A DNA stretch of 64,000 bases from Bacteroidales bacterium (GTDB lineage Bacteria; Bacteroidota; Bacteroidia; Bacteroidales; UBA12077): the NCBI GenBank assembly GCA_028282785.1, contig JANQHE010000020.1:62001-126000 (forward strand), in the 5' to 3' direction. The translations under genes and the position numbers were made by a program. The notes under the pieces are model-generated. The model did not search any database. It worked only from the letters and a program-made list of their open reading frames with translations, and was not told the DNA's origin. Positions 49,549 through 58,940 of the stretch are shown here, piece after piece. The first letter of the stretch is position 1. The number at the start of each line of letters is the position of its first letter.

Positions 49549-49579
49549 GAAAGTCATATATGTGCGGAATGGCTTTTTT
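49549..49579 (+). terminator. Intrinsic terminator closing the second hairpin array
   Basis: AAAGTCAT (49550-49557) pairs with ATGGCTTT (49569-49576), including one G-U, and is followed by T. TAAACCGAAAG ahead of it is shared with the terminator at 5702. It touches the 3' end of hisIE, which runs on the other strand. Confidence 0.75.
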
Positions 49580-50174
49580 ATCTATTGTGCCTTTCGCCCA
49601 AAACATTAATCACATCTTGAATGCTATGGTTTTTTACTGATAATAGAACAAGCAAGTGATAAATCAGGTCGGCTGCTTCATTTAAAAATAATTCATTGTC
49701 ATTGTCTTTGGATTCGATGATTAACTCTATAGCTTCTTCACCAACTTTTTGAGCAATTTTATTAATGCCTTTTTCAAAAAGTTTGGTAGTATAGGATTCT
49801 TCCGGCATTTCTATTTTACGCTTATCAATTACTTGTTGTAAATAGTTTAAATCGAAAGTTTGTTCTTGTAAACCAAAGCATGTTTTTCTACCTGTATGGC
49901 ATACCGGGCCTGTTGGTTCTACTAAAATTAAAAGAGTATCATTATCACAATCCGGTACTATTTCTTTTACATTTAAATAATTACCACTGGTTTCTCCTTT
50001 TGTCCATAAAATATTTCTTGACCTGCTAAAAAAAGTAACCTTTTGCTCTTTAATTGTTTTATCATATGCATTCTGGTTCATAAAACCAAGCATTAAAACT
50101 TCTTTTGTTTTTATATCTTGAATTATAGCGGGAATTAGACCGTTTAATTTATTAAAATTTAAATTTTGTTTCAT
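49578..50174 (-). CDS. hisIE: Bifunctional phosphoribosyl-AMP cyclohydrolase / phosphoribosyl-ATP pyrophosphatase
   Basis: 198 residues; steps 2 and 3 of histidine synthesis. The HisI part (about 1-103) has VTFFSRSRNILWTKGETSGN, the metal-site aspartates and cysteine in PDCDNDT, and TGPVCHTGRKTCF. The HisE part (about 110-195) has VGEEAIELIIESKD and FLNEAADLIYHLLVLL. The fused form is common in this phylum. It is the last gene of the operon and is convergent with the hairpin array. Confidence 0.95.
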   Translation of the reverse strand: MKQNLNFNKLNGLIPAIIQDIKTKEVLMLGFMNQNAYDKTIKEQKVTFFSRSRNILWTKGETSGNYLNVKEIVPDCDNDTLLILVEPTGPVCHTGRKTCFGLQEQTFDLNYLQQVIDKRKIEMPEESYTTKLFEKGINKIAQKVGEEAIELIIESKDNDNELFLNEAADLIYHLLVLLSVKNHSIQDVINVLGERHNR

Positions 50175-50253
50175 TGCTGTTAGTTTAGTTCTTTATTCAA
50201 GTTTTGAGCTTATGGCTGGAAGCTGAGAGCTATTAGCTTCTAGCTAAAAACTT

Positions 50254-51009
50254 TCAAATTCTTACTGGTATTTTTTCTTTGTACAGGCCTTCCTTTAGTA
50301 TTGAAATTTCAATCTCCTGATAGTGAAAGACACTTGCTGCAAGTGCTGCTTCTACATTTGAATAGTTGAAAACCTCGATAAAATCATCAATACTTCCGGC
50401 TCCACCTGATGCAATTACCGGAATATTTAATGTTTCAGTTAGCTTTTTTAATGGGTCTAAAGCAAAGCCATTTTTTGTGCCGTCGTGGTTCATGGATGTA
50501 AAAAGGATCTCTCCACAGCCTAAACTTTGGGTTTGCCTGGCCCAACTAAATAATTCCAGGTTGGTTTTTATTCGGCCCCCATTCTTGTAAACTATCCATT
50601 TGCCATCTTCAGGTTTTGCATCAACAGCCAATACGATAAACTGGCTTCCGAACTTTTTAGCAATATCTTCAATTAGCCCGGGACTGGTAATGGCTGCAGA
50701 ATTGACTGATATTTTATCTGCTCCTGCGGAAAGAATAGTTTCTGCATCTGCTATGCTTGATATACCGCCACCAACAGTAAAAGGTATGCTAATTTGTTTT
50801 GCAATCCTGGTTACTAACCGGCTAAGGGTTTTGCGCTTTTCGTGAGAAGCCGTAATATCCAGAAATACTAATTCATCAGCTCCATTATCACTATAATATT
50901 TGCCCAATTCAACCGGATCGCCAACATCAATCAGGTTTTCAAACTCAATTCCTTTGACAGTTTGGCCATCTTTAATGTCAAGGCATGGTATAATACGTTT
51001 TGCTAACAT
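50254..51009 (-). CDS. hisF: Imidazole glycerol phosphate synthase cyclase subunit
   Basis: 251-residue TIM barrel that uses HisH-derived ammonia to make IGP and AICAR. Catalytic D11 in IIPCLDIKDG, the phosphate loops FTVGGGISS and IASGGAGS, and the second acid in LAVDAKPE (D near 130) are present. It overlaps the start-side hisA gene by 7 bases. A 79-base gap with an imperfect AGCTNNTAGC hairpin separates it from hisIE. Confidence 0.95.
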   Translation of the reverse strand: MLAKRIIPCLDIKDGQTVKGIEFENLIDVGDPVELGKYYSDNGADELVFLDITASHEKRKTLSRLVTRIAKQISIPFTVGGGISSIADAETILSAGADKISVNSAAITSPGLIEDIAKKFGSQFIVLAVDAKPEDGKWIVYKNGGRIKTNLELFSWARQTQSLGCGEILFTSMNHDGTKNGFALDPLKKLTETLNIPVIASGGAGSIDDFIEVFNYSNVEAALAASVFHYQEIEISILKEGLYKEKIPVRI

Positions 51010-51725
51010 AACTCTATGGTATTATTTTCAAATTGAATGGTGTCTTCATAAAATGCTTTTCCAACAATCACCGCATCAATCCCCAATTTATCCAGTTCAT
51101 AAATATCCTTTTTAGAACTAACACCACCACTTGCAATGAGGTAACAATCTTTAAATTGATGTTTTAAGTTTCTGTACAACTCGACATTTGTACCTGAAAG
51201 CATTCCATCTTTAGAAATATCAGTACACATAAACCTGCGAATTCCTAAATTATAGTAGCTGTTTATCAATTCGCCTATCGCAATGCCTGTTGGTTTTGCC
51301 CATCCGTTAATGTAAACCTGGTTATCAAGTACATCGGCAGCCAAAATGAATTTCTCGTATCCAAATTCATCTATTAAATCAATAAATTTGGATGGATCTT
51401 TAATGGCTAGGCTTCCAATACCTAAATATTGGGCTCCTGCCTTAATTGCTGCTTTTACCTGAGATTTATTTCGTAAACCACCGCTATAGTCAACGATAAG
51501 ATTTGTGTTTATACAGATATCTTTCAATACACCTAAATTTTCAGGTTTCCCTGATCTTGCCCCGTCCAGGTCAACTAAATGCAACTGTTTAAATCCCTGG
51601 TTTTCGAAGGTTTTAGCAACCTGGACAGGATTGTTTGAATAGATTGTTTTTTGATTGTACTTGCCTTGTGTTAGCCTAACACACTGGCCACCTATTATGT
51701 CTATTGCCGGTATTATTTCTATCAT
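51003..51725 (-). CDS. hisA: ProFAR isomerase (HisA)
   Basis: 240-residue TIM barrel, homologous to HisF, catalysing the Amadori rearrangement of ProFAR. D9 in IIPAIDIIGGQCVRL and the second acidic residue in LAADVLDN (D near 128) are the general acid/base positions. LIASGGVSS is the phosphate loop. It overlaps hisH by 4 bases and hisF by 7 bases, suggesting coupled translation. Confidence 0.95.
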   Translation of the reverse strand: MIEIIPAIDIIGGQCVRLTQGKYNQKTIYSNNPVQVAKTFENQGFKQLHLVDLDGARSGKPENLGVLKDICINTNLIVDYSGGLRNKSQVKAAIKAGAQYLGIGSLAIKDPSKFIDLIDEFGYEKFILAADVLDNQVYINGWAKPTGIAIGELINSYYNLGIRRFMCTDISKDGMLSGTNVELYRNLKHQFKDCYLIASGGVSSKKDIYELDKLGIDAVIVGKAFYEDTIQFENNTIELC

Positions 51726-52303
51726 AATTCAATAAAGTTTTTTAGTATTAATTCTCCGGTTCTCCCACTTCGTTCAGGATGAAACTGTGTGGCATAAAAA
51801 TTACCTTTTTGCATTGCAGCAGAAAAAGGTTCAATGTAATTACAGCTTGCAATTGAGTATTTGTTGTTATATGCAAAATAGCTATGAACAAAGTACACAA
51901 AACTGTTTTCGGGGATATCTTTAAATAAAGGCCCTTTCAGATTAGAAATACTACTCCATCCAACATGTGGAACCTTTTCCTTAGGAGGGAATTTTTGAAT
52001 TTTTTCATCAAATATTCCTAAACAGGGTGTTTCGCCTTCAGTTGAAAAAGCGCACATTAGTTGCATTCCAAGGCAAATGCCTAAGACAGGCTGTTGTAAT
52101 TTTGGAATTAACGTATTTAAACCAGTTTCTTTTAAGTAATTCATAGTGGTTGATGCTTCTCCGACACCTGGAAAGATTACCTTATCAGATTTCTGAATAA
52201 TCTCAGGGGCATCTGTTATTTCAGGTTGTATTCCCAAACGGTTTAAAGCTAATGCTACACTGGTTATATTGCCTGCATTGTATTTTATTATTGATATTTT
52301 CAT
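51722..52303 (-). CDS. hisH: Imidazole glycerol phosphate synthase glutaminase subunit
   Basis: 193-residue class I glutamine amidotransferase. The nucleophile C77 lies in VLGICLGMQLM, and the His/Glu pair of the triad is in FYATQFHPERSG near the C-terminus. It supplies ammonia to HisF. It overlaps hisA by 4 bases, and a palindromic repeat fills the 134-base gap to hisB. Confidence 0.95.
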   Translation of the reverse strand: MKISIIKYNAGNITSVALALNRLGIQPEITDAPEIIQKSDKVIFPGVGEASTTMNYLKETGLNTLIPKLQQPVLGICLGMQLMCAFSTEGETPCLGIFDEKIQKFPPKEKVPHVGWSSISNLKGPLFKDIPENSFVYFVHSYFAYNNKYSIASCNYIEPFSAAMQKGNFYATQFHPERSGRTGELILKNFIEL

Positions 52304-52320
52304 ATGGTTTAATTTTTAAT

Positions 52321-52411
52321 TGAAAATCAGGATTTACCACAGCCCTAAATGGAGTCCTGATTTTCAGTTGCTACACTCTTTAGGGTATGGGGTAAAAAGT
52401 AACTGAAAATC
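52321..52411. repeat. Double palindromic repeat between hisB and hisH
   Basis: TGAAAATCAGGA (from 52321) and TCCTGATTTTCA (to 52366) form a 12-bp stem around ...AGCCCTAAATGGAG. A second hairpin, GTTGCTAC...TTTAGGGTATGGGGTAAAAAGTAAC, follows. It shares the CCCTAAA/TTTAGGG core of the dispersed repeats at 46061 and 57217, and it interrupts an otherwise compact operon. Confidence 0.6.
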
Positions 52412-52437
52412 TCACTATTCAATTTCATTTGATATTC

Positions 52438-53535
52438 TCATAACTTCCCTTTAGTAGATGGCACCTGAAAGGATGTGTTATCCTGTTTAACAGCCATCTT
52501 TATTGCTTTTGCAAGAGCTTTGAAAATGCTTTCAATTTTATGGTGCTCATTTTTACCTTTAGCCTTTATATTAAGATTGCATTGGGCCGAATCCGATAGT
52601 GATTTAAAAAAATGGTAAAACATTTCAGTAGGCGTATCACCAATTTTTTCGCGCTTGAAATTTGCACTCCATACTAACCAGGGACGTCCTCCAAAATCAA
52701 GTGCCACTTGAGCAATATTATCGTCCATTGGAAGAATGGATCCATATCGTTCTATTCCTTTTTTATTGCCTAATGCTATCTTAAGTCCTTCACCCAGGGC
52801 TATTGCAGTATCTTCTATCGTATGGTGCTCATCAATATCCAGATCTCCGTTAACCTTAAGTTCAAGGCCAATGCCTGAATGTTTGGAAAGCTGTTCCAAC
52901 ATATGGTCAAAGAATTTAAGCCCGGTCGAAATTTTTGAACTTCCATTACCATCGAGGTAAAGATTAAGTTCAATATCTGTTTCATTGGTTTTTCTATAAA
53001 CTTTAGCCGATCTGTAATTCTTTCGAATAACATTTGTTATTTCATCCCAGTTTTTGCATACAAATGAGTTTTCATCAACTGCCGGACTATCCTTAGAAAG
53101 CATAATTCCTTTAATCTTCATATTTTGGGCCAGTTGAATATCTGTAATGCGGTCTCCAATAACAAAGGATTTATCATAATCCAAAGTATCATTTAGGTAC
53201 TTGCCCACAAGCCTTGTTCCGGGTTTCCTTGTTAGCGAATTATCTTCCGGGAACGATTTGTCAATTAGAATTTCAGTGAACTCAATGCCTTCTCCCTGTA
53301 AAGTTTTTATCAGTTTCTCTTGCACTAAATGAAATACATTCTCAGGATAGGCTGCAGTCCCTAACCCATCCTGGTTACTAACCATGACCAGTTCGTAATC
53401 AAACCGATTAATTAACAGGTATAAATTACGGATAGCTCCCGGAACAAGCTCCAGTTTTTCAAGGCTATCGACTTGTTCATCTGCTGGTTCTTTAATGATT
53501 GTTCCATCTCTGTCAAGAAATAATATCTTCTTCAT
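52438..53535 (-). CDS. hisB: Bifunctional histidinol-phosphatase / imidazoleglycerol-phosphate dehydratase
   Basis: 365 residues from the ATG at 53535. A HAD-type phosphatase comes first: [12 protein letters not shown] at the N-terminus with nucleophile aspartate, then SNQDGLGT and [13 protein letters not shown] (about 1-165). The IGPD domain follows (about 180-365) with the metal-binding [13 protein letters not shown] and [16 protein letters not shown]. The fused order is that of enterobacterial HisB. An ATG 24 bases upstream (53559) is possible, but the preferred start gives a proper HAD N-terminus. It overlaps hisC by 23 bases. Confidence 0.93.
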
Positions 53536-54595
53536 AACAATTTGATTTTGTTTGTTCATACTTTTTTAAACTTTCAATAAGTTGTTTATTCTCTGTTGGC
53601 GTACCTACGGAAATTCTGAGGCACCCATCACAGTTATATTCACCGGACCTTTCGCGAACGATAATCTTGGCTTCCTTTAAATAGATAAATACTTTCTTGT
53701 GGTTCTTGAATTGCACGAGCAGGAAATTTGCATCGGAAGGCCATATCTTTACCACACTTTTAAGAGAATTAAAATTGTTTTCCAGCCATTCTCTTTGTTC
53801 AAGAATTGAATCGATGTTTGATTTTAAATTTTGAGTTTGCAAAGCATCTAATGCTGCTTTTTGACTTAACTGGCTTATATTGTATGGATATTTTATTTTA
53901 TTAAGAACTCCAACTATTTCTGCATTAGCAAATGCCATTCCCAAGCGTATGCCGGCATTGGCCCTGCCCTTCGAAAAAGTCTGTAAAATAACCAGGTTAG
54001 GATAACTAACGATTTCGTTTACAAAACTTACTTCAGGTGCAAAATCAATATAAGCTTCGTCAATAACAACCAATCCATTAAAACTATTCAGTAAATCAAT
54101 AATTAATTCCTTCTGGATTAAATTTCCCGTAGGGTTATTTGGCGAACACACAAAAATAATTTTGGTATTTTGCTGCCTGGTATACAATGCCTTCAAATCT
54201 AATTGAAATGATTCATCTAGTTTTACCTTGATTACCTTCACATTATTGATATTTGCACAAACCTCATACATCCCGTATGTTGGAATGTTTATCAATACGG
54301 AATCTTTGCCGGGTTCACAAAACGCCCTGATTAACAGGTCAATTATTTCATCACTGCCATTTCCTAAAAAGACATTCTCAACAGAGATTCCTTTTTGTTT
54401 TGAGATTTCCTTTTTTAAATCTCTCTGAAAAGGGTCAGGGTACCTGTTATATCCAATAGGGAAAGGGTTTTCATTGGCATCCAGAAGAATTGATTTGGCA
54501 TCTTTCAGTTCTTCCCGGGCTGATTGATAAGGTTTAAGGTTTTTAATGTTTGGCCTTATCAATTTATTTATATCAAATTCAGTTTTTGTCATCAT
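53513..54595 (-). CDS. hisC: Histidinol-phosphate aminotransferase
   Basis: 360-residue fold-type I PLP enzyme. [15 protein letters not shown] near 38-52, [15 protein letters not shown] near 76-90, [11 protein letters not shown] near 148-158, VIDEAYIDF near 176-184 and the PLP lysine in [14 protein letters not shown] near 205-218 are present. The final residues overlap the start of hisB. A 186-base non-coding gap with GC-rich sequence separates it from hisD upstream. Confidence 0.95.
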
Positions 54596-54781: not shown

Positions 54782-56086
54782 CTATATTGTCATGAAGGTT
54801 TCATCTTCTAAAGCTTTTAATCTTATTGAAACAGCATTTTTATGTGCCTGGAGTTCTTCAGCATTAGCAATGATCTCAACAAATGGCCCAATAACTTTTA
54901 ATCCTTGCTTAGTGGATTCCTGGAAAGTTATTTTCTTATAGTAGGCATCCATATTAAGCCCGCTATAACTTTTGGCAAACCCATTGGTTGGCAATGTATG
55001 GTTGGTTCCGGATGCATAATCACCCAAACTTTCAGGCGTATAATTTCCAAGGAAAACAGAACCTGCATTTGTAATTTTTGAAGCTACAGATGAATAATCC
55101 CTGGTTGAAATTATGAGGTGCTCAGGAGCATAACTGTTTGATATATCAATCATTTCCTGTATATCATTCATAATTATTATAGCTCCTGATTTCAGAGATT
55201 TCTTTGCAATTTCCTTACGAGATAAATTCTTTAGTTGATTTTTAAGTTCAATCAATGTTTGATTGGCAATTGTTTTATTATTAGTTACCAAAATTACCTG
55301 GCTGTCTGTGCCATGTTCTGCCTGGGATAGTAAATCCGCAGCTAAAAATTTAGGATTTGCAATTTCATCAGCCAATATCATAACTTCCGATGGTCCGGCA
55401 GGCATATCAATAGCAACTCCATCGGTTGAAACCAACTGTTTTGCAAGGGTCACATATTGATTTCCCGGTCCAAATATTTTATCCACCTTTGGAATGGTTT
55501 CAGTGCCATATGCCATTGCAGCAATAGCTTGCACCCCTCCACATGAATAAATTTCTTTTATTCCTGATATTTTGGCTGCATAAAGAATTGCCGGGTTTAC
55601 TTTTCCTTCTTTATTTGGTGGAGTGCATAAAATAATTTGTTTACAACCTGCCAGAGTTGCCGGATAGGCTAGCATTAAAACGGTTGAAATCAAAGGTGCT
55701 GTTCCTCCCGGAATATATAAACCCACTTTTTCAATAGGTACAGCCTTTTGCCAACAGCGGACCCCATTCATTGTTTCAACTGAAATTTCCTTTGGAACCT
55801 GGGCCTTGTGAAATTTAATGATATTGAGAGCTGCAATTTTTATAGCGTTTTTTAATTCTTTACTTAGCAACTTTTCGGAACTATCAATTAATGATTTTGA
55901 CAACCTAAGGTTTTGAATATCTGCCTTATCAAATTTCGATGTTAGTTTAAACAATGCCTTATCGCCTTTATCTTTAACAAGCTTAATTATATCTTTAACT
56001 GATTCAATTATTTGACCGGTATCAGAATTCGGACGTTGGAGGATTTCAACTAATTCAGTTTTAGTTGGATTGTCGTATATTTTCAT
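54782..56086 (-). CDS. hisD: Histidinol dehydrogenase
   Basis: 434 residues; zinc- and NAD-dependent oxidation of histidinol to histidine in two steps. GLYIPGGTAPLISTVLMLAYPA (in parts near 120-140), IDMPAGPSEVMILAD, the zinc-site Q/H of SQAEHGTDSQ, and SYAPEHLIIST with FLGNYTPESLGDYASGTNHTLPT are the family's landmarks. It is the second gene of the operon, 98 bases after hisG. Confidence 0.95.
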   Translation of the reverse strand: MKIYDNPTKTELVEILQRPNSDTGQIIESVKDIIKLVKDKGDKALFKLTSKFDKADIQNLRLSKSLIDSSEKLLSKELKNAIKIAALNIIKFHKAQVPKEISVETMNGVRCWQKAVPIEKVGLYIPGGTAPLISTVLMLAYPATLAGCKQIILCTPPNKEGKVNPAILYAAKISGIKEIYSCGGVQAIAAMAYGTETIPKVDKIFGPGNQYVTLAKQLVSTDGVAIDMPAGPSEVMILADEIANPKFLAADLLSQAEHGTDSQVILVTNNKTIANQTLIELKNQLKNLSRKEIAKKSLKSGAIIIMNDIQEMIDISNSYAPEHLIISTRDYSSVASKITNAGSVFLGNYTPESLGDYASGTNHTLPTNGFAKSYSGLNMDAYYKKITFQESTKQGLKVIGPFVEIIANAEELQAHKNAVSIRLKALEDETFMTI

Positions 56087-56184: not shown

Positions 56185-57042
56185 TCAAATAATCATTTTT
56201 TCAATGGGTATTACCAGTATTCCTTGTGCACCTGCATTTTTAAGCTGTCCTATAATTTCCCAGAAAGCTTCTTCGTTTACAACTGAATGTAATGAGAACC
56301 ATCCTTTTTCAGCTAATGGCAGAATGGTTGGGCTTTTCATGCCAGGTATTATTTCTTTAATTTCCTTCAGGCTCTCTTCGGGAGCATTTAACAGAATATA
56401 TTTATTGGATTTGGCTTCTTGCAATGACCTGATTCTAAATAAAAGTTGGTTCAGGATACTTGCCTTTTCTTTTGGCAGGTTTTCTCTCCCAATGATAATA
56501 GCTTCTGAATCGACAACCTTTTCAACTTCTTTTAAGCCATTGCTGATTAATGTACTTCCGGAGCTTACAATGTCGAATATACCGTCTGCAAGTCCAATAC
56601 TTGGTGAGATTTCCACAGAGCCGCTTATTTCGTGTATTTCGGCATTTACCTTATTTAAAGATAAAAATGATCTCAGGATAAAAGGGTAGGAGGTGGCAAT
56701 TTTTTTATTCCGGAAATAATCCAATGATTTATATTCCTCAGACTTTGGAATAGCAAGGGATAATCTGCATTTGGCAAATCCCAGTCGTTCATAAATGGAT
56801 AAGGAATAATTTTTTTCCAGGTATTCGTTTTCTCCGACAATCCCAATGTCTACTACACCATCATTTACATATTGTGGTATGTCATCATCCCTTAAAAAAA
56901 GGACCTCAATAGGGAAATTAGAGGATATGGAAATTAATTTCCTGTTTCCATTCGTTAGTTTGATATTACAATCGTTTAATAACCGAATCGATTTTTCACT
57001 TAACCTTCCTGATTTTTGTACTGCAATTTTTAGTTTTTTCAT
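56185..57042 (-). CDS. hisG: ATP phosphoribosyltransferase, long form
   Basis: 285 residues; first and feedback-controlled step of histidine synthesis. KIAVQKSGRLSEKS at the N-terminus, VDIGIVGENEYLE (about 72-84), and the PRPP loop region in GLADGIFDIVSSGSTLISNGL (about 150-170) mark the catalytic part. Residues about 215-285 (IIPGMKSPTILPLAEKGW) form the ACT-like histidine-binding domain of the HisG-L class, so HisZ is not needed. First structural gene after a tandem attenuator region. Confidence 0.95.
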   Translation of the reverse strand: MKKLKIAVQKSGRLSEKSIRLLNDCNIKLTNGNRKLISISSNFPIEVLFLRDDDIPQYVNDGVVDIGIVGENEYLEKNYSLSIYERLGFAKCRLSLAIPKSEEYKSLDYFRNKKIATSYPFILRSFLSLNKVNAEIHEISGSVEISPSIGLADGIFDIVSSGSTLISNGLKEVEKVVDSEAIIIGRENLPKEKASILNQLLFRIRSLQEAKSNKYILLNAPEESLKEIKEIIPGMKSPTILPLAEKGWFSLHSVVNEEAFWEIIGQLKNAGAQGILVIPIEKMII

Positions 57043-57064
57043 GATAAATTAATTGTGATTAAAC

Positions 57065-57095
57065 AAAAAAGGCCCGCAGATTTCTGCAGGCCTTT
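57065..57095 (-). terminator. Proximal his attenuator terminator
   Basis: On the minus strand AAAGGCCTGCAGA and TCTGCGGGCCTTT form 13 pairs, including one G-U, around a 2-base loop and run into six U (complement of 57065-57070). It lies between the second His-rich leader and hisG. Confidence 0.85.
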
Positions 57096-57113
57096 AATTT
57101 CATTTTCTTGAAC

Positions 57114-57191
57114 TTAAGTTTTGCCATAGCATTTTCTGCCGGGTGAGGTTTTCACTCGATGATGATGGGTATGACAATGTATCAAGTTCAT
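57114..57191 (-). CDS. Second histidine leader peptide
   Basis: 25 codons, MNLIHCHTHHHRVKTSPG then seven more, with His at residues 5, 7, 9, 10 and 11. It ends 19 bases before a strong terminator (57065-57095) and is 71 bases upstream of hisG. The arrangement fits attenuation by His-tRNA supply. The start MNL, length and position of the His run match the distal leader at 57330-57407, indicating duplication or shared design. The exact antiterminator could not be resolved by eye. Confidence 0.85.
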   Translation of the reverse strand: MNLIHCHTHHHRVKTSPGRKCYGKT

Positions 57192-57216
57192 TTTATTTTA
57201 GATTTTTCGTTTTGCT

Positions 57217-57255
57217 CCTTCTCTAAAGGGAGTCGAAGACTCCCTTTAGAGAAGG
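57217..57255. repeat. Perfect inverted repeat between the two his attenuators
   Basis: An 18-base arm (57217-57234) is repeated in exact reverse complement at 57238-57255 around a GAA loop, with the core CTAAAGGGAGTC / GACTCCCTTTAG. It belongs to the dispersed repeat family at 46061 and 52321 and sits exactly between the two leader-terminator modules. Confidence 0.75.
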
Positions 57256-57271
57256 GGTAATTATTTAAACT

Positions 57272-57303
57272 AAAAAAGGGCCTGCAAAATTTGCAAGCCC
57301 TTT
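57272..57303 (-). terminator. Distal his attenuator terminator
   Basis: On the minus strand AAAGGGCTTGCAAA pairs with TTTGCAGGCCCTTT with one mismatch and is followed by U. It is about 27 bases after the stop of the first His leader. Confidence 0.8.
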
Positions 57304-57329
57304 AATACTATTGATATATTTTTAAGAAT

Positions 57330-57407
57330 CTACAAAATATTGCATACTGTTCCCGTTCCAGCATGATGATGGTGATAATGAACAGTATGTACGAATTGTA
57401 AATTCAT
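57330..57407 (-). CDS. First (distal) histidine leader peptide
   Basis: 25 codons beginning MNLQFVHTVHYHHHHAGTGT, with His at residues 7, 10, 12, 13, 14 and 15, so six of nine residues in that window are His. A terminator follows at 57272-57303. It stands about 290 bases upstream of hisG, with a complete second leader-terminator between. Its promoter is not obvious; TAATATTG on the minus strand near 57430 is a weak -7 candidate. Confidence 0.87.
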   Translation of the reverse strand: MNLQFVHTVHYHHHHAGTGTVCNIL

Positions 57408-57588
57408 TTTGCCTTATTTTTCTTCTACAATATTAATACTTTTTTTAATTCTTACTATATAAACACCAAAATTTTAAAAATGGGTGACACTGATTTTCTT
57501 TTTTTAGTTGAAATTAAAATCCCAGTTATCAGTTCAACTTGAGGGATTAATTCCGTTAAGATTTATAACCAATCCTTTCAATAAATTT

Positions 57589-57705
57589 TTAATCTGACAT
57601 TATTAAAATAAAAGAATTTCGATTTCCTCTTGATAAAGGAACTTCCGTTTCATCTAACATTAATAGATAACATCCTTTTTTAACATATTTATTCAATACC
57701 TGGAA
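57589..57705 (-). pseudogene. 3' remnant of a LytTR response-regulator gene
   Basis: A frame with no usable start ends NKYVKKGCYLLMLDETEVPL, SRGNRNSFILIMSD and stop. Compared by eye with the C-terminus of the response regulator at 59458-60195 (NKYIKKGSYLLMSDGSEVPL...ITIMSD), 26 of 34 residues are identical. An in-frame stop lies just upstream at 57706-57708. It is a truncated duplicate of that gene, separated from it by about 1.8 kb of other genes. Confidence 0.75.
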
Positions 57706-57714
57706 TTAATAATT

Positions 57715-58284
57715 TTATTGTTTATTGTTTCTTAATCGAGAAAGTGTGGCAATATCTATTCCTAAAAACGATGCGATATGAGTAAGAGGTACTACTTTTA
57801 GTATTTCAGGATTACATTTACAAAATTCTTCATACCTGTCAATTGCTTTATTCGTTTGGAACTGAACAGCCCGGTCTAACAACTGGTCATTTTTAATTTC
57901 AGAAACTCCTTTACATATATGCTGCCATAAACTTACTTTTTTATACAATTCCGTAAATTCTTCCGATGTAGTTGTTATTAATTCAGTCTGTTCATAAGAA
58001 ATAATATTTTCATTTACGGGAACACCTTCATTAAAACTATATGGAACAATCACCACCGTTCCTTTTTTAAAAAATTGTAAAGTTACTTCTTTACCTTCAT
58101 GATCATAGGTATAGCTTCTTAATATGCCTGATTTAACAAAGCCCAGTTTATTGGCAACTTCCCCAATTTTTACAAAAAACTGTTTCGGTTCAATAACCTC
58201 AATCTTAAAATATTTTTCAGTAATCTCCCAATCGGATTCTGAAAGATTAAATTGTTTTTGTAATGTTTCTTTAAAACCCTGCAT
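57715..58284 (-). CDS. Crp/Fnr-family transcription regulator
   Basis: 189 residues from the ATG at 58284 (MQGFKETLQKQ). The frame can be extended to a TTG at 58314. A cyclic-nucleotide-binding-like beta roll (about 25-115: PKQFFVKIGEVANKLGFVKSGILRSY) precedes a long helix and a C-terminal helix-turn-helix (PLTHIASFLGIDIATLSRLRNN). Fnr-type cysteines are missing, so it is not an Fe-S oxygen sensor. Divergent from the OsmC-like gene, which it may regulate. Confidence 0.85.
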   Translation of the reverse strand: MQGFKETLQKQFNLSESDWEITEKYFKIEVIEPKQFFVKIGEVANKLGFVKSGILRSYTYDHEGKEVTLQFFKKGTVVIVPYSFNEGVPVNENIISYEQTELITTTSEEFTELYKKVSLWQHICKGVSEIKNDQLLDRAVQFQTNKAIDRYEEFCKCNPEILKVVPLTHIASFLGIDIATLSRLRNNKQ

Positions 58285-58490
58285 GATATAACAATTTTTT
58301 ACAAAATTATTCAAATTAAGTAACTATAAAATGATATTAATCAAATTAAATAGATTGGTAATTAATATTAATGTTAATTGTAAAATGAGTGGATAGTCAG
58401 TTTTAATAAAGCATTGAAAAGTACTTTTAAAAATTGACAAATATCAAAATAGGATTTGATTTCTATATTGTAATTTTGAAAAAAACAGAT

Positions 58491-58940
58491 ATGAAAATAA
58501 ATAAGGAACTTAAAGTATCACTTGGTTTGATTAATGAAAAGCTCCACTTTAAAGGAGTTAGCAGGAAAAATGAGCCAATATCCATAGATTATATACCTCC
58601 TTTGGGAGATAATTTGGGATACACATCACTTGAGCTGTTTTTATTCAGTATATCTTCGTGCATAGCAAGCACAATTTTGATATTTCTAAGAAAAGAGAAT
58701 AAGATTATTTCAACTATAAATATTAATGCAAGTGGAATAAGGAAGGAAGAACACCCTACAGGGTTAAGGAATGTTGACATTAATATTGAAATAGATTCCC
58801 AAAACCTTACAAATCAAGAAATGGAAAGTGTAATTAAGAAATCTAAGGAAGAGTATTGCCCTGTTATATCTATGTTAAACAAAGACGTGCAGGTGGCTGT
58901 AAATTATGAAATTATAAAGGAGAGAAGGCATGTTGAATAA
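58491..58940 (+). CDS. OsmC-family protein
   Basis: 149 residues from the ATG at 58491 (MKINKELKVSLG); the frame opens earlier at a TTG (58434) that overlaps a TAATTTTG promoter-like box at 58471. The layout matches OsmC/Ohr folds: the helix GYTSLELFLFSISSCIASTILIFLR carries the first cysteine near 71, and the second lies in EEYCPVISML near 125. It may detoxify hydroperoxides. It overlaps the next gene by 11 bases. Divergent from the Crp-like gene. Confidence 0.8.
   Translation: MKINKELKVSLGLINEKLHFKGVSRKNEPISIDYIPPLGDNLGYTSLELFLFSISSCIASTILIFLRKENKIISTININASGIRKEEHPTGLRNVDINIEIDSQNLTNQEMESVIKKSKEEYCPVISMLNKDVQVAVNYEIIKERRHVE

Follow-up and report, generated by a model that had tools for sequence, protein, structure and literature searches.

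Two probable histidine attenuators in series upstream of hisG in a Bacteroidales bacterium

Introduction

Leader-peptide attenuation is usually drawn as a single gate. The his operon of a Bacteroidales bacterium raises the question what it means when two such gates stand in a row before the same gene, and whether both of them are met by one and the same transcript. We analyzed a stretch of 64,000 nucleotides, referred to as the window throughout, together with hisG loci of related genomes. On the minus strand of the window, 5' of hisG, two His-rich leader ORFs were found with six and five His codons, respectively, each of which is followed by an intrinsic terminator. With respect to hisG, the two modules are called distal and proximal. 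It is highly probable that this leader comprises two ribosome-mediated His attenuators, one behind the other, and that both belong to a single transcript with its start shortly 5' of the first. In our best reading, the kind of control is a known one, leader-peptide attenuation, and two gates for the same signal in series are what is new.

Results

Layout of the his locus

The his operon is composed of eight ORFs on the minus strand with hisG at its head (Table 1). hisG, hisD, and hisC were scanned against a model library; the names of the other five, which we take to be hisB, hisH, hisA, hisF, and hisIE, rest on inspection and recall. Two short ORFs with runs of His codons hence precede an operon that makes histidine (hisG, hisD, hisC), and in both modules an intrinsic terminator separates the leader from the next element. 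The initial annotation had placed the two stacked modules correctly, including the 25-codon leaders with six and five His and the palindrome between them.

The 24-nt half of this palindrome has six other sites in the genome at 92% identity, three of which lie within approximately 60 nt of a contig end. As a third terminator the palindrome was rejected, since a T tract is absent on the his strand and the half recurs elsewhere in the genome. The spacer from the distal terminator to the proximal ATG measures 83 nt in the window, 82 nt in locus L013, and 28–40 nt in five of the six genus relatives.

Table 1. Features of the his leader and operon in the window, in order of transcription
Feature	Position	Strand	Evidence or remark
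Degenerate -33 box ATAG, at usual spacing	57455-57458	-	consensus comparison
-7-like promoter box TAATATTG, 20 nt before distal ATG	57428-57435	-	consensus match
Distal His leader ORF MNLQFVHTVHYHHHHAGTGTVCNIL and stop, 25 codons, 6 His	57330-57407	-	found in 7/7 genus genomes with hisG
Distal region 1 GAATTTACAA, ORF start, 5' arm of leader-enclosing hairpin	57396-57405	-	folding, alignment
Distal inner 5' arm CATACTGTTC	57380-57389	-	folding
Distal inner 3' arm GAACAGTATG	57343-57352	-	folding
Distal region 2 TTGTAGATTC, 3' arm, includes leader stop codon	57326-57335	-	folding, alignment
Distal candidate antiterminator strand TTTTGTAGATTCTTA, partner AAAGGGCTTGCAAAT at 57289-57303	57323-57337	-	pairing search
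Distal intrinsic terminator, 13 pairs, T tract	57275-57303	-	100% of cells paired, 7 genomes
47-nt palindrome in spacer between modules, related to dispersed repeat	57213-57259		sequence inspection, repeat search
Proximal His leader ORF MNLIHCHTHHHRVKTSPGRKCYGKT and stop, 25 codons, 5 His	57114-57191	-	frame shifted after His codons versus relatives
Proximal region 1 TGAACTTGA, pairs with TTAAGTTCA (57109-57117)	57182-57190	-	folding
Proximal inner pair	57170-57177 with 57121-57128	-	folding
Proximal intrinsic terminator, 12 pairs, T tract	57068-57095	-	100% of cells paired; 3 pairs changed on both sides
hisG, first gene of the operon	56185-57042, ATG 57042	-	TIGR00070, 183.2 bits, cut-off 75.75
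hisD	54782-56086	-	TIGR00069
hisC	53513-54595	-	TIGR01141
Five more ORFs, reading as hisB, hisH, hisA, hisF, hisIE	49578-53559	-	inspection

Controls against chance

A module was called by a detector that combines an ATG-initiated ORF of 8–50 codons, at least three His in seven, and a terminator-like hairpin within 130 nt. It was run on 147 stretches upstream of hisG with a minimum length of 200 nt; G162, L142, and L164 were too short and left out, L020 and L021 were removed as duplicates of the L010 and L013 stretches, and five rows of the order sample were removed as copies of rows in the family searches. A His leader with terminator was found in 127 of the 147 stretches, 29 of which contain two modules and 98 one, while 20 contain none. 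Two loci scored as single, L147 and L150, reveal two leaders and a second hairpin by eye, and would raise the tandem count to 31. The same detector returned nothing on the reverse strands (0/147) or on shuffled stretches (0/441). When both strands of the window were scanned (ATG, 8–50 codons, at least four His in eight, terminator within 120 nt), only the two ORFs described here passed. Terminator-like sites in 56400-58600 number seven against 0.8 expected, three of the seven being the single palindrome.

Predicted folding of the two modules

For the leader of 385 nt, the predicted folding energy is -125.6 kcal/mol against a shuffle mean of -69 (z -10.8), and none of 100 shuffles is as stable. 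In this fold each module forms its leader hairpin and its terminator, and the palindrome is present as well. In each leader hairpin region 1 pairs with region 2 (1:2), with energies in the window of -25.4 kcal/mol for the distal and -16.7 kcal/mol for the proximal module (z -5.1 in both); over the genus, the mean z is -4.9 and -2.7, respectively. Consensus folds show the 1:2 hairpin as well, where the proximal consensus retains the inner helices only.

Over seven genomes, 98.6% of the cells are paired in the distal outer helix (GAATTTACAA with TTGTAGATTC, across the stop codon) and 72.9% in the inner helix around the His codons. The distal module varies little, and its covariation is not beyond shuffles (414/500 as high). 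Outer helices of the proximal module are kept in only 57–59% of cells. Its hairpin and terminator together reveal changes on both sides in 8 of 41 pairs over the seven genomes (shuffle mean 4.1, 3/500 as high), and the covariation score and 21 further pair types are equalled by 0/500 shuffles, with the caveat that kinship among the rows can beat shuffles even without structure.

The proximal leader differs in length among the genomes, with 22–23 codons in five of six relatives and 32 in L015. In the window, the alignment has a 1-nt gap behind the His codons, which moves the frame to a later stop and gives the 25 codons. In the alignment with relatives, the nucleotides CCCGGCAGAA are retained in the window in spite of the altered frame and stop, which suggests that RNA rather than peptide is constrained. 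Between the proximal terminator and hisG, L013 has an additional 30-codon ORF, approximately 96 nt before hisG; this interval measures 24–30 nt in the other six genomes of the genus.

The initial annotation had proposed to fold each module for a competing antiterminator, and the outcome differs between groups. In 87 single modules from other groups the candidate 2:3 pairing averages -13.0 kcal/mol (z -2.4). In the genus studied here it is not above shuffles, with a mean z of -0.5 for distal and -0.1 for proximal modules. For the window, the distal candidate TTTTGTAGATTCTTA/AAAGGGCTTGCAAAT has -7.8 kcal/mol (z -0.5, within chance) and the proximal one -7.5 kcal/mol (z 0.5). Near-identical distal pairing occurs in four of the seven genus genomes (L009, L011, L012, L014). 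In the proximal module of L015, the candidate strands AATAAGCAGA and CCTGCTTATC fit each other (z -3.0), though both differ from those of the relatives. An antiterminator formed via the 3' arm of the terminator was rejected, as no more than 2 of the 14 modules of the genus have a z below -2. Judged by these predicted pairings, the competing antiterminator in this genus is the least certain element and the weakest link of the series model.

Conservation and phylogenetic distribution

The genus of the window includes the MAGs Bacteroidetes bacterium GWF2_33_16 (HisG 82% identical) and Bacteroidales bacterium UBA12171. Compared for one against two modules, as had been proposed at the outset, its members reveal two modules in all seven genomes with hisG, out of 20 searched. 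In the sister genus, hisG was found in four of five genomes and two modules in three of these four. The distal terminator was also considered as the end of an upstream gene and rejected: the module is kept while the sequence further upstream varies among relatives (by eye). Seven of the 13 genus genomes in which a hisG match is absent are at least 90% complete, which suggests that His synthesis was lost patchily in the genus.

At the level of the order, an even sample of 197 genomes gave 96 with a hisG match, of which three partial ones were dropped; of the 93 used, one was too short. The resulting 92 loci comprise seven tandem cases, 66 single modules, and 19 loci without module. The tandem cases come from four families, f1, f38, f61, and f30. 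Family f38 is tandem in the one locus available (1/1). In f61, the script called four of five loci tandem, and the fifth, L136, reveals two terminators and a second leader with two His by eye. In f30, 14 of 24 assessable loci are tandem, to which L147 and L150 can be added by eye. The 21 remaining loci, mostly from Flavobacteriaceae and found by a scan of named contigs, contain a single module each. Common His attenuators are thereby recorded in Bacteroidales and in the sampled Flavobacteriaceae.

Loss of a module appears separable for the two types: L160 retains the distal type, L156 and L159 the proximal type, and L016 has one module. On a HisG tree of 97 rows, built by a quick method, with many weak branches and gains not separable from losses, the tandem state changes at least six times when L147 and L150 are set tandem by eye and L136 is omitted, and nine times as first scored. 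Within the family of the window, the tree sets the two genera apart; a topology that joins them is not rejected (p-AU 0.63).

Promoter-like sites and co-transcription

The Bacteroidota-type promoter consensus reads TTTG, about 19 nt, then TANNTTTG. In the window, the site upstream of the distal leader has 7/10 matches, equalled by 76/100 shuffles; its -7 box is kept and its -33 box is not. Five of the six genus relatives carry TTTG-N19-TATAATTG/TATTATTG 19–21 nt before the distal ATG, with 9/10 matches and 0–9 of 100 shuffles as good, and in the sixth, L015, the best site is at -46. In three further loci (L017, L018, L019), the -7 box ends 6–7 nt 5' of the distal leader ATG, and thus the mRNA from which the distal leader peptide is translated may be almost leaderless.

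Across the 29 tandem loci, a site matched by at most 5/100 shuffles lies before the first leader in 18 cases and before the second leader in none. The best site scores higher before the first leader in 23 loci, equal in four, and lower in two, the exceptions being L137 (G084) and L143, for which just 36 nt upstream were available. Because promoter-like sites better than chance are found before the first leader and not before the second, both gates are probably passed by one transcript, and a start between the modules is unlikely. An internal promoter was rejected on the same count (0/29).

Individual loci add points on either side. The window itself has a long spacer and a poor upstream -33 box, L137 an 8/10 site before its second leader (9/100 shuffles), and L145 a site equalled by 6/100; all of these would suit a start between the modules. 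Against it, the best site before the proximal leader in the window has 6/10 matches, equalled by 96/100 shuffles, and the distal leader is conserved while the sequence farther upstream differs among relatives (by eye). The spacer is at most 42 nt in 15 of the 29 tandem loci, and the shortest ones of 4, 7, and 10 nt (L162, L163, and L158, respectively) offer hardly any space for a promoter unless it overlaps the terminator. In the other 14 loci it exceeds 42 nt and reaches 294 nt; at 83 nt, the window itself is not covered by the short-spacer argument.

Relation of the two modules to each other

Equal length and a common MNL start had been taken by the initial annotation to indicate duplication. 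This is not supported: the frame and stop of the proximal leader in the window have changed, so that its 25 codons stem from a frameshift, and relatives mostly have 22–23 codons. Moreover, the ATGAATTTACAA start of the leaders doubles as the 5' arm of the RNA hairpin. With His masked, leader pairs within a genome have a mean similarity of 15.4 (26 genomes), no higher than the 15.6 ± 3.0 of 536 cross-group pairs; the pair in the window scores 12, equalled by 149/200 shuffles. Six of the 26 pairs stand out with at most 8/200 shuffles as high (L013, L015, L017, L135, L137, L158). The terminators of paired his modules are alike, sharing a motif, and the leader parts are not. A recent duplication of the his module is therefore not supported by the leader parts, while an ancient one with later divergence may have taken place.

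Leaders of trp and ilv genes

Doubling of leaders is not restricted to his. Beyond the window, the same genome has a trpE-like gene (TIGR00564, E 2.4e-130, 435.9 bits, below the cut-off of 517.7), upstream of which lies a pair of putative Trp attenuators, both composed of a WWW leader and a terminator (L210:1141-1439, G000:C17). Close matches to this gene were found in five of 24 family genomes at seven loci. All six readable ones (L210, L216, L218–L221), from four genomes, have paired WWW modules, their genes being identified as trpE-like; three of the six come from G002, where all three genes are called trpE-like. The seventh, L217, ends near a contig end, and only a terminator of the proximal type is visible. 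The leaders of a trp pair resemble each other in four of six loci, where at most 1/200 shuffles score as high, against 6 in L216 and 31 in L219; this comparison favours a relationship between the paired leaders. In a simple test, neither 1:2 nor 2:3 pairing of the trp modules was above shuffles.

In the ilv operon of the window, an Ile/Val-rich leader MKNLSMIITIIIVVIVQKAKWEYYR lies before ilvD (28894, minus strand) and another, MSLLHHILFVLIIVIIIIPP, separates ilvD from the gene that follows (26527, minus strand), each with a terminator after it. The arrangement differs from that of his, as the two leaders are split around ilvD and not stacked before one gene. By eye, a sequence resembling the palindrome of the his leader is also present upstream of ilvD.

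Discussion

Two gates in series

In the mechanism we propose, both modules would sense charged tRNA-His. Each leader ORF is predicted to sit inside a hairpin, with the ORF start as 5' arm and the 3' arm at the ORF end and stop codon. When His is ample, the ribosome would reach the stop, or the hairpin would stay closed, and the terminator would form. When His is scarce, the ribosome would stall at the His codons, open the hairpin, and free the 3' arm to hinder the terminator. RNA polymerase reading past the first gate would meet the second, and read-through into hisG would be the product of two read-throughs (p1 x p2). Such a product would imply a lower basal leak and a steeper response to His-tRNA charging than one module can give; with illustrative, not measured, values, a leak of 10% at each gate would become 1%, and 80% opening at each would become 64%.

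Tandem attenuation, as the initial annotation had it, is in good agreement with the two conserved modules, the compensatory changes in the proximal one, and the promoter pattern (18/29 versus 0/29); the multiplied repression and sharpened response it also expected are what we infer from the product of the two gates. The same doubling in relatives and at trp genes is the reason why a tighter and sharper switch is the expected outcome. We think it likely, if less so than the series arrangement itself, that the family habitually places two attenuators for one amino acid in series, as seen for his and trp, so that multiplied (squared) control is routine there, and that within the order this doubling arose or disappeared repeatedly.

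The two leaders could instead respond over different ranges, for example the first to mild and the second to severe His shortage, which would widen the graded range rather than sharpen the switch. This is possible but on the whole unlikely. It would suit the fact that the modules differ in number and spacing of His codons, in hairpin strength (-25.4 versus -16.7 kcal/mol), and in peptide, and that the two types remain distinguishable throughout the genus. Yet both use His codons, for which there is a single tRNA, and a strong terminator closes each of them, for which reason the product rule would still hold for them in series.

Rather improbable is a leader in which a single module works, its partner being a relic or a simple terminator by which transcription is cut by a constant fraction. 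The likelier relic of the two would be the proximal leader of the window, with its frameshift and weak antiterminator; 2:3 pairing is weak in both modules, and the two types are kept and lost separately (L160 distal type, L156 and L159 proximal type, L016 one module). After the frameshift, however, the leader in the window is still open and contains five His, its hairpin and terminator are both retained, and the compensatory changes in the proximal module over seven genomes are unexpected for an idle relic, even if related rows may inflate them. Very improbable, in view of the promoter pattern described above, is transcription of hisG from an internal promoter between the modules, in which case the distal module would yield a separate short RNA and only the proximal attenuator would be met.

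If the series reading is true, bacteria multiply attenuators for tightness and steepness, as was suggested for tandem RNA sensors. Natural relatives with one and with two modules make the idea of multiplied attenuators testable.

Comparison with known systems

The hisG leader, with its candidate alternative hairpins, resembles the enterobacterial his leader, in which a short His-rich ORF, alternative hairpins, and an intrinsic terminator lie directly before hisG, and it differs in having two complete modules in series. With E values of up to 5 admitted, Rfam His_leader, the family of the enterobacterial his attenuator, gave no match within 57000-57500. The best row of a leader type was Leu_leader on the proximal module, with 31.3 bits where gathering requires 50. 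Neither in the window nor in nine scanned his loci did any Rfam family attain its gathering score.

Another leader-peptide RNA of a Bacteroidota amino acid operon is Bacteroid-trp (RF01692), which concerns Trp and is a single unit. The trp leaders described above stay below its gathering score, with 27.9 of 49 bits (E 0.4) for the proximal one of L210. Bacteroid-trp is listed in PMC2864571, and leader peptides were known in 2010 only from Proteobacteria and Actinobacteria until PMC2965389 added Firmicutes. PMC9413887 lists His T-boxes, a few of them in tandem, and His attenuators in Gram-positives, and PMC2965389 reports a rimP leader with a second terminator in tandem; the passages of PMC4833913 that were consulted contain nothing on tandem leaders. 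A search of mainly open-access literature gave no recognized description of a leader in which two leader-peptide attenuators answer to one amino acid.

Two systems come closer to the arrangement found here. In Salmonella mgtCBR, one leader RNA also contains two leader ORFs, each part of an attenuator (PMC3641672). There, mgtM and mgtP sense ATP and proline, respectively, while both modules of the his leader use His codons; and the stem-loops of mgtCBR are described there as unlike intrinsic terminators, which the his modules do have. The tandem glnA RNAs and the tandem riboswitches of B. anthracis, as treated in PMC2864571, likewise stack like sensors before one operon, and the tandem glnA arrangement is tied there to 'more-digital' regulation. 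These RNA sensors detect tRNA or ligand through RNA structure, whereas in the his leader translation of the leader peptides is the proposed sensor.
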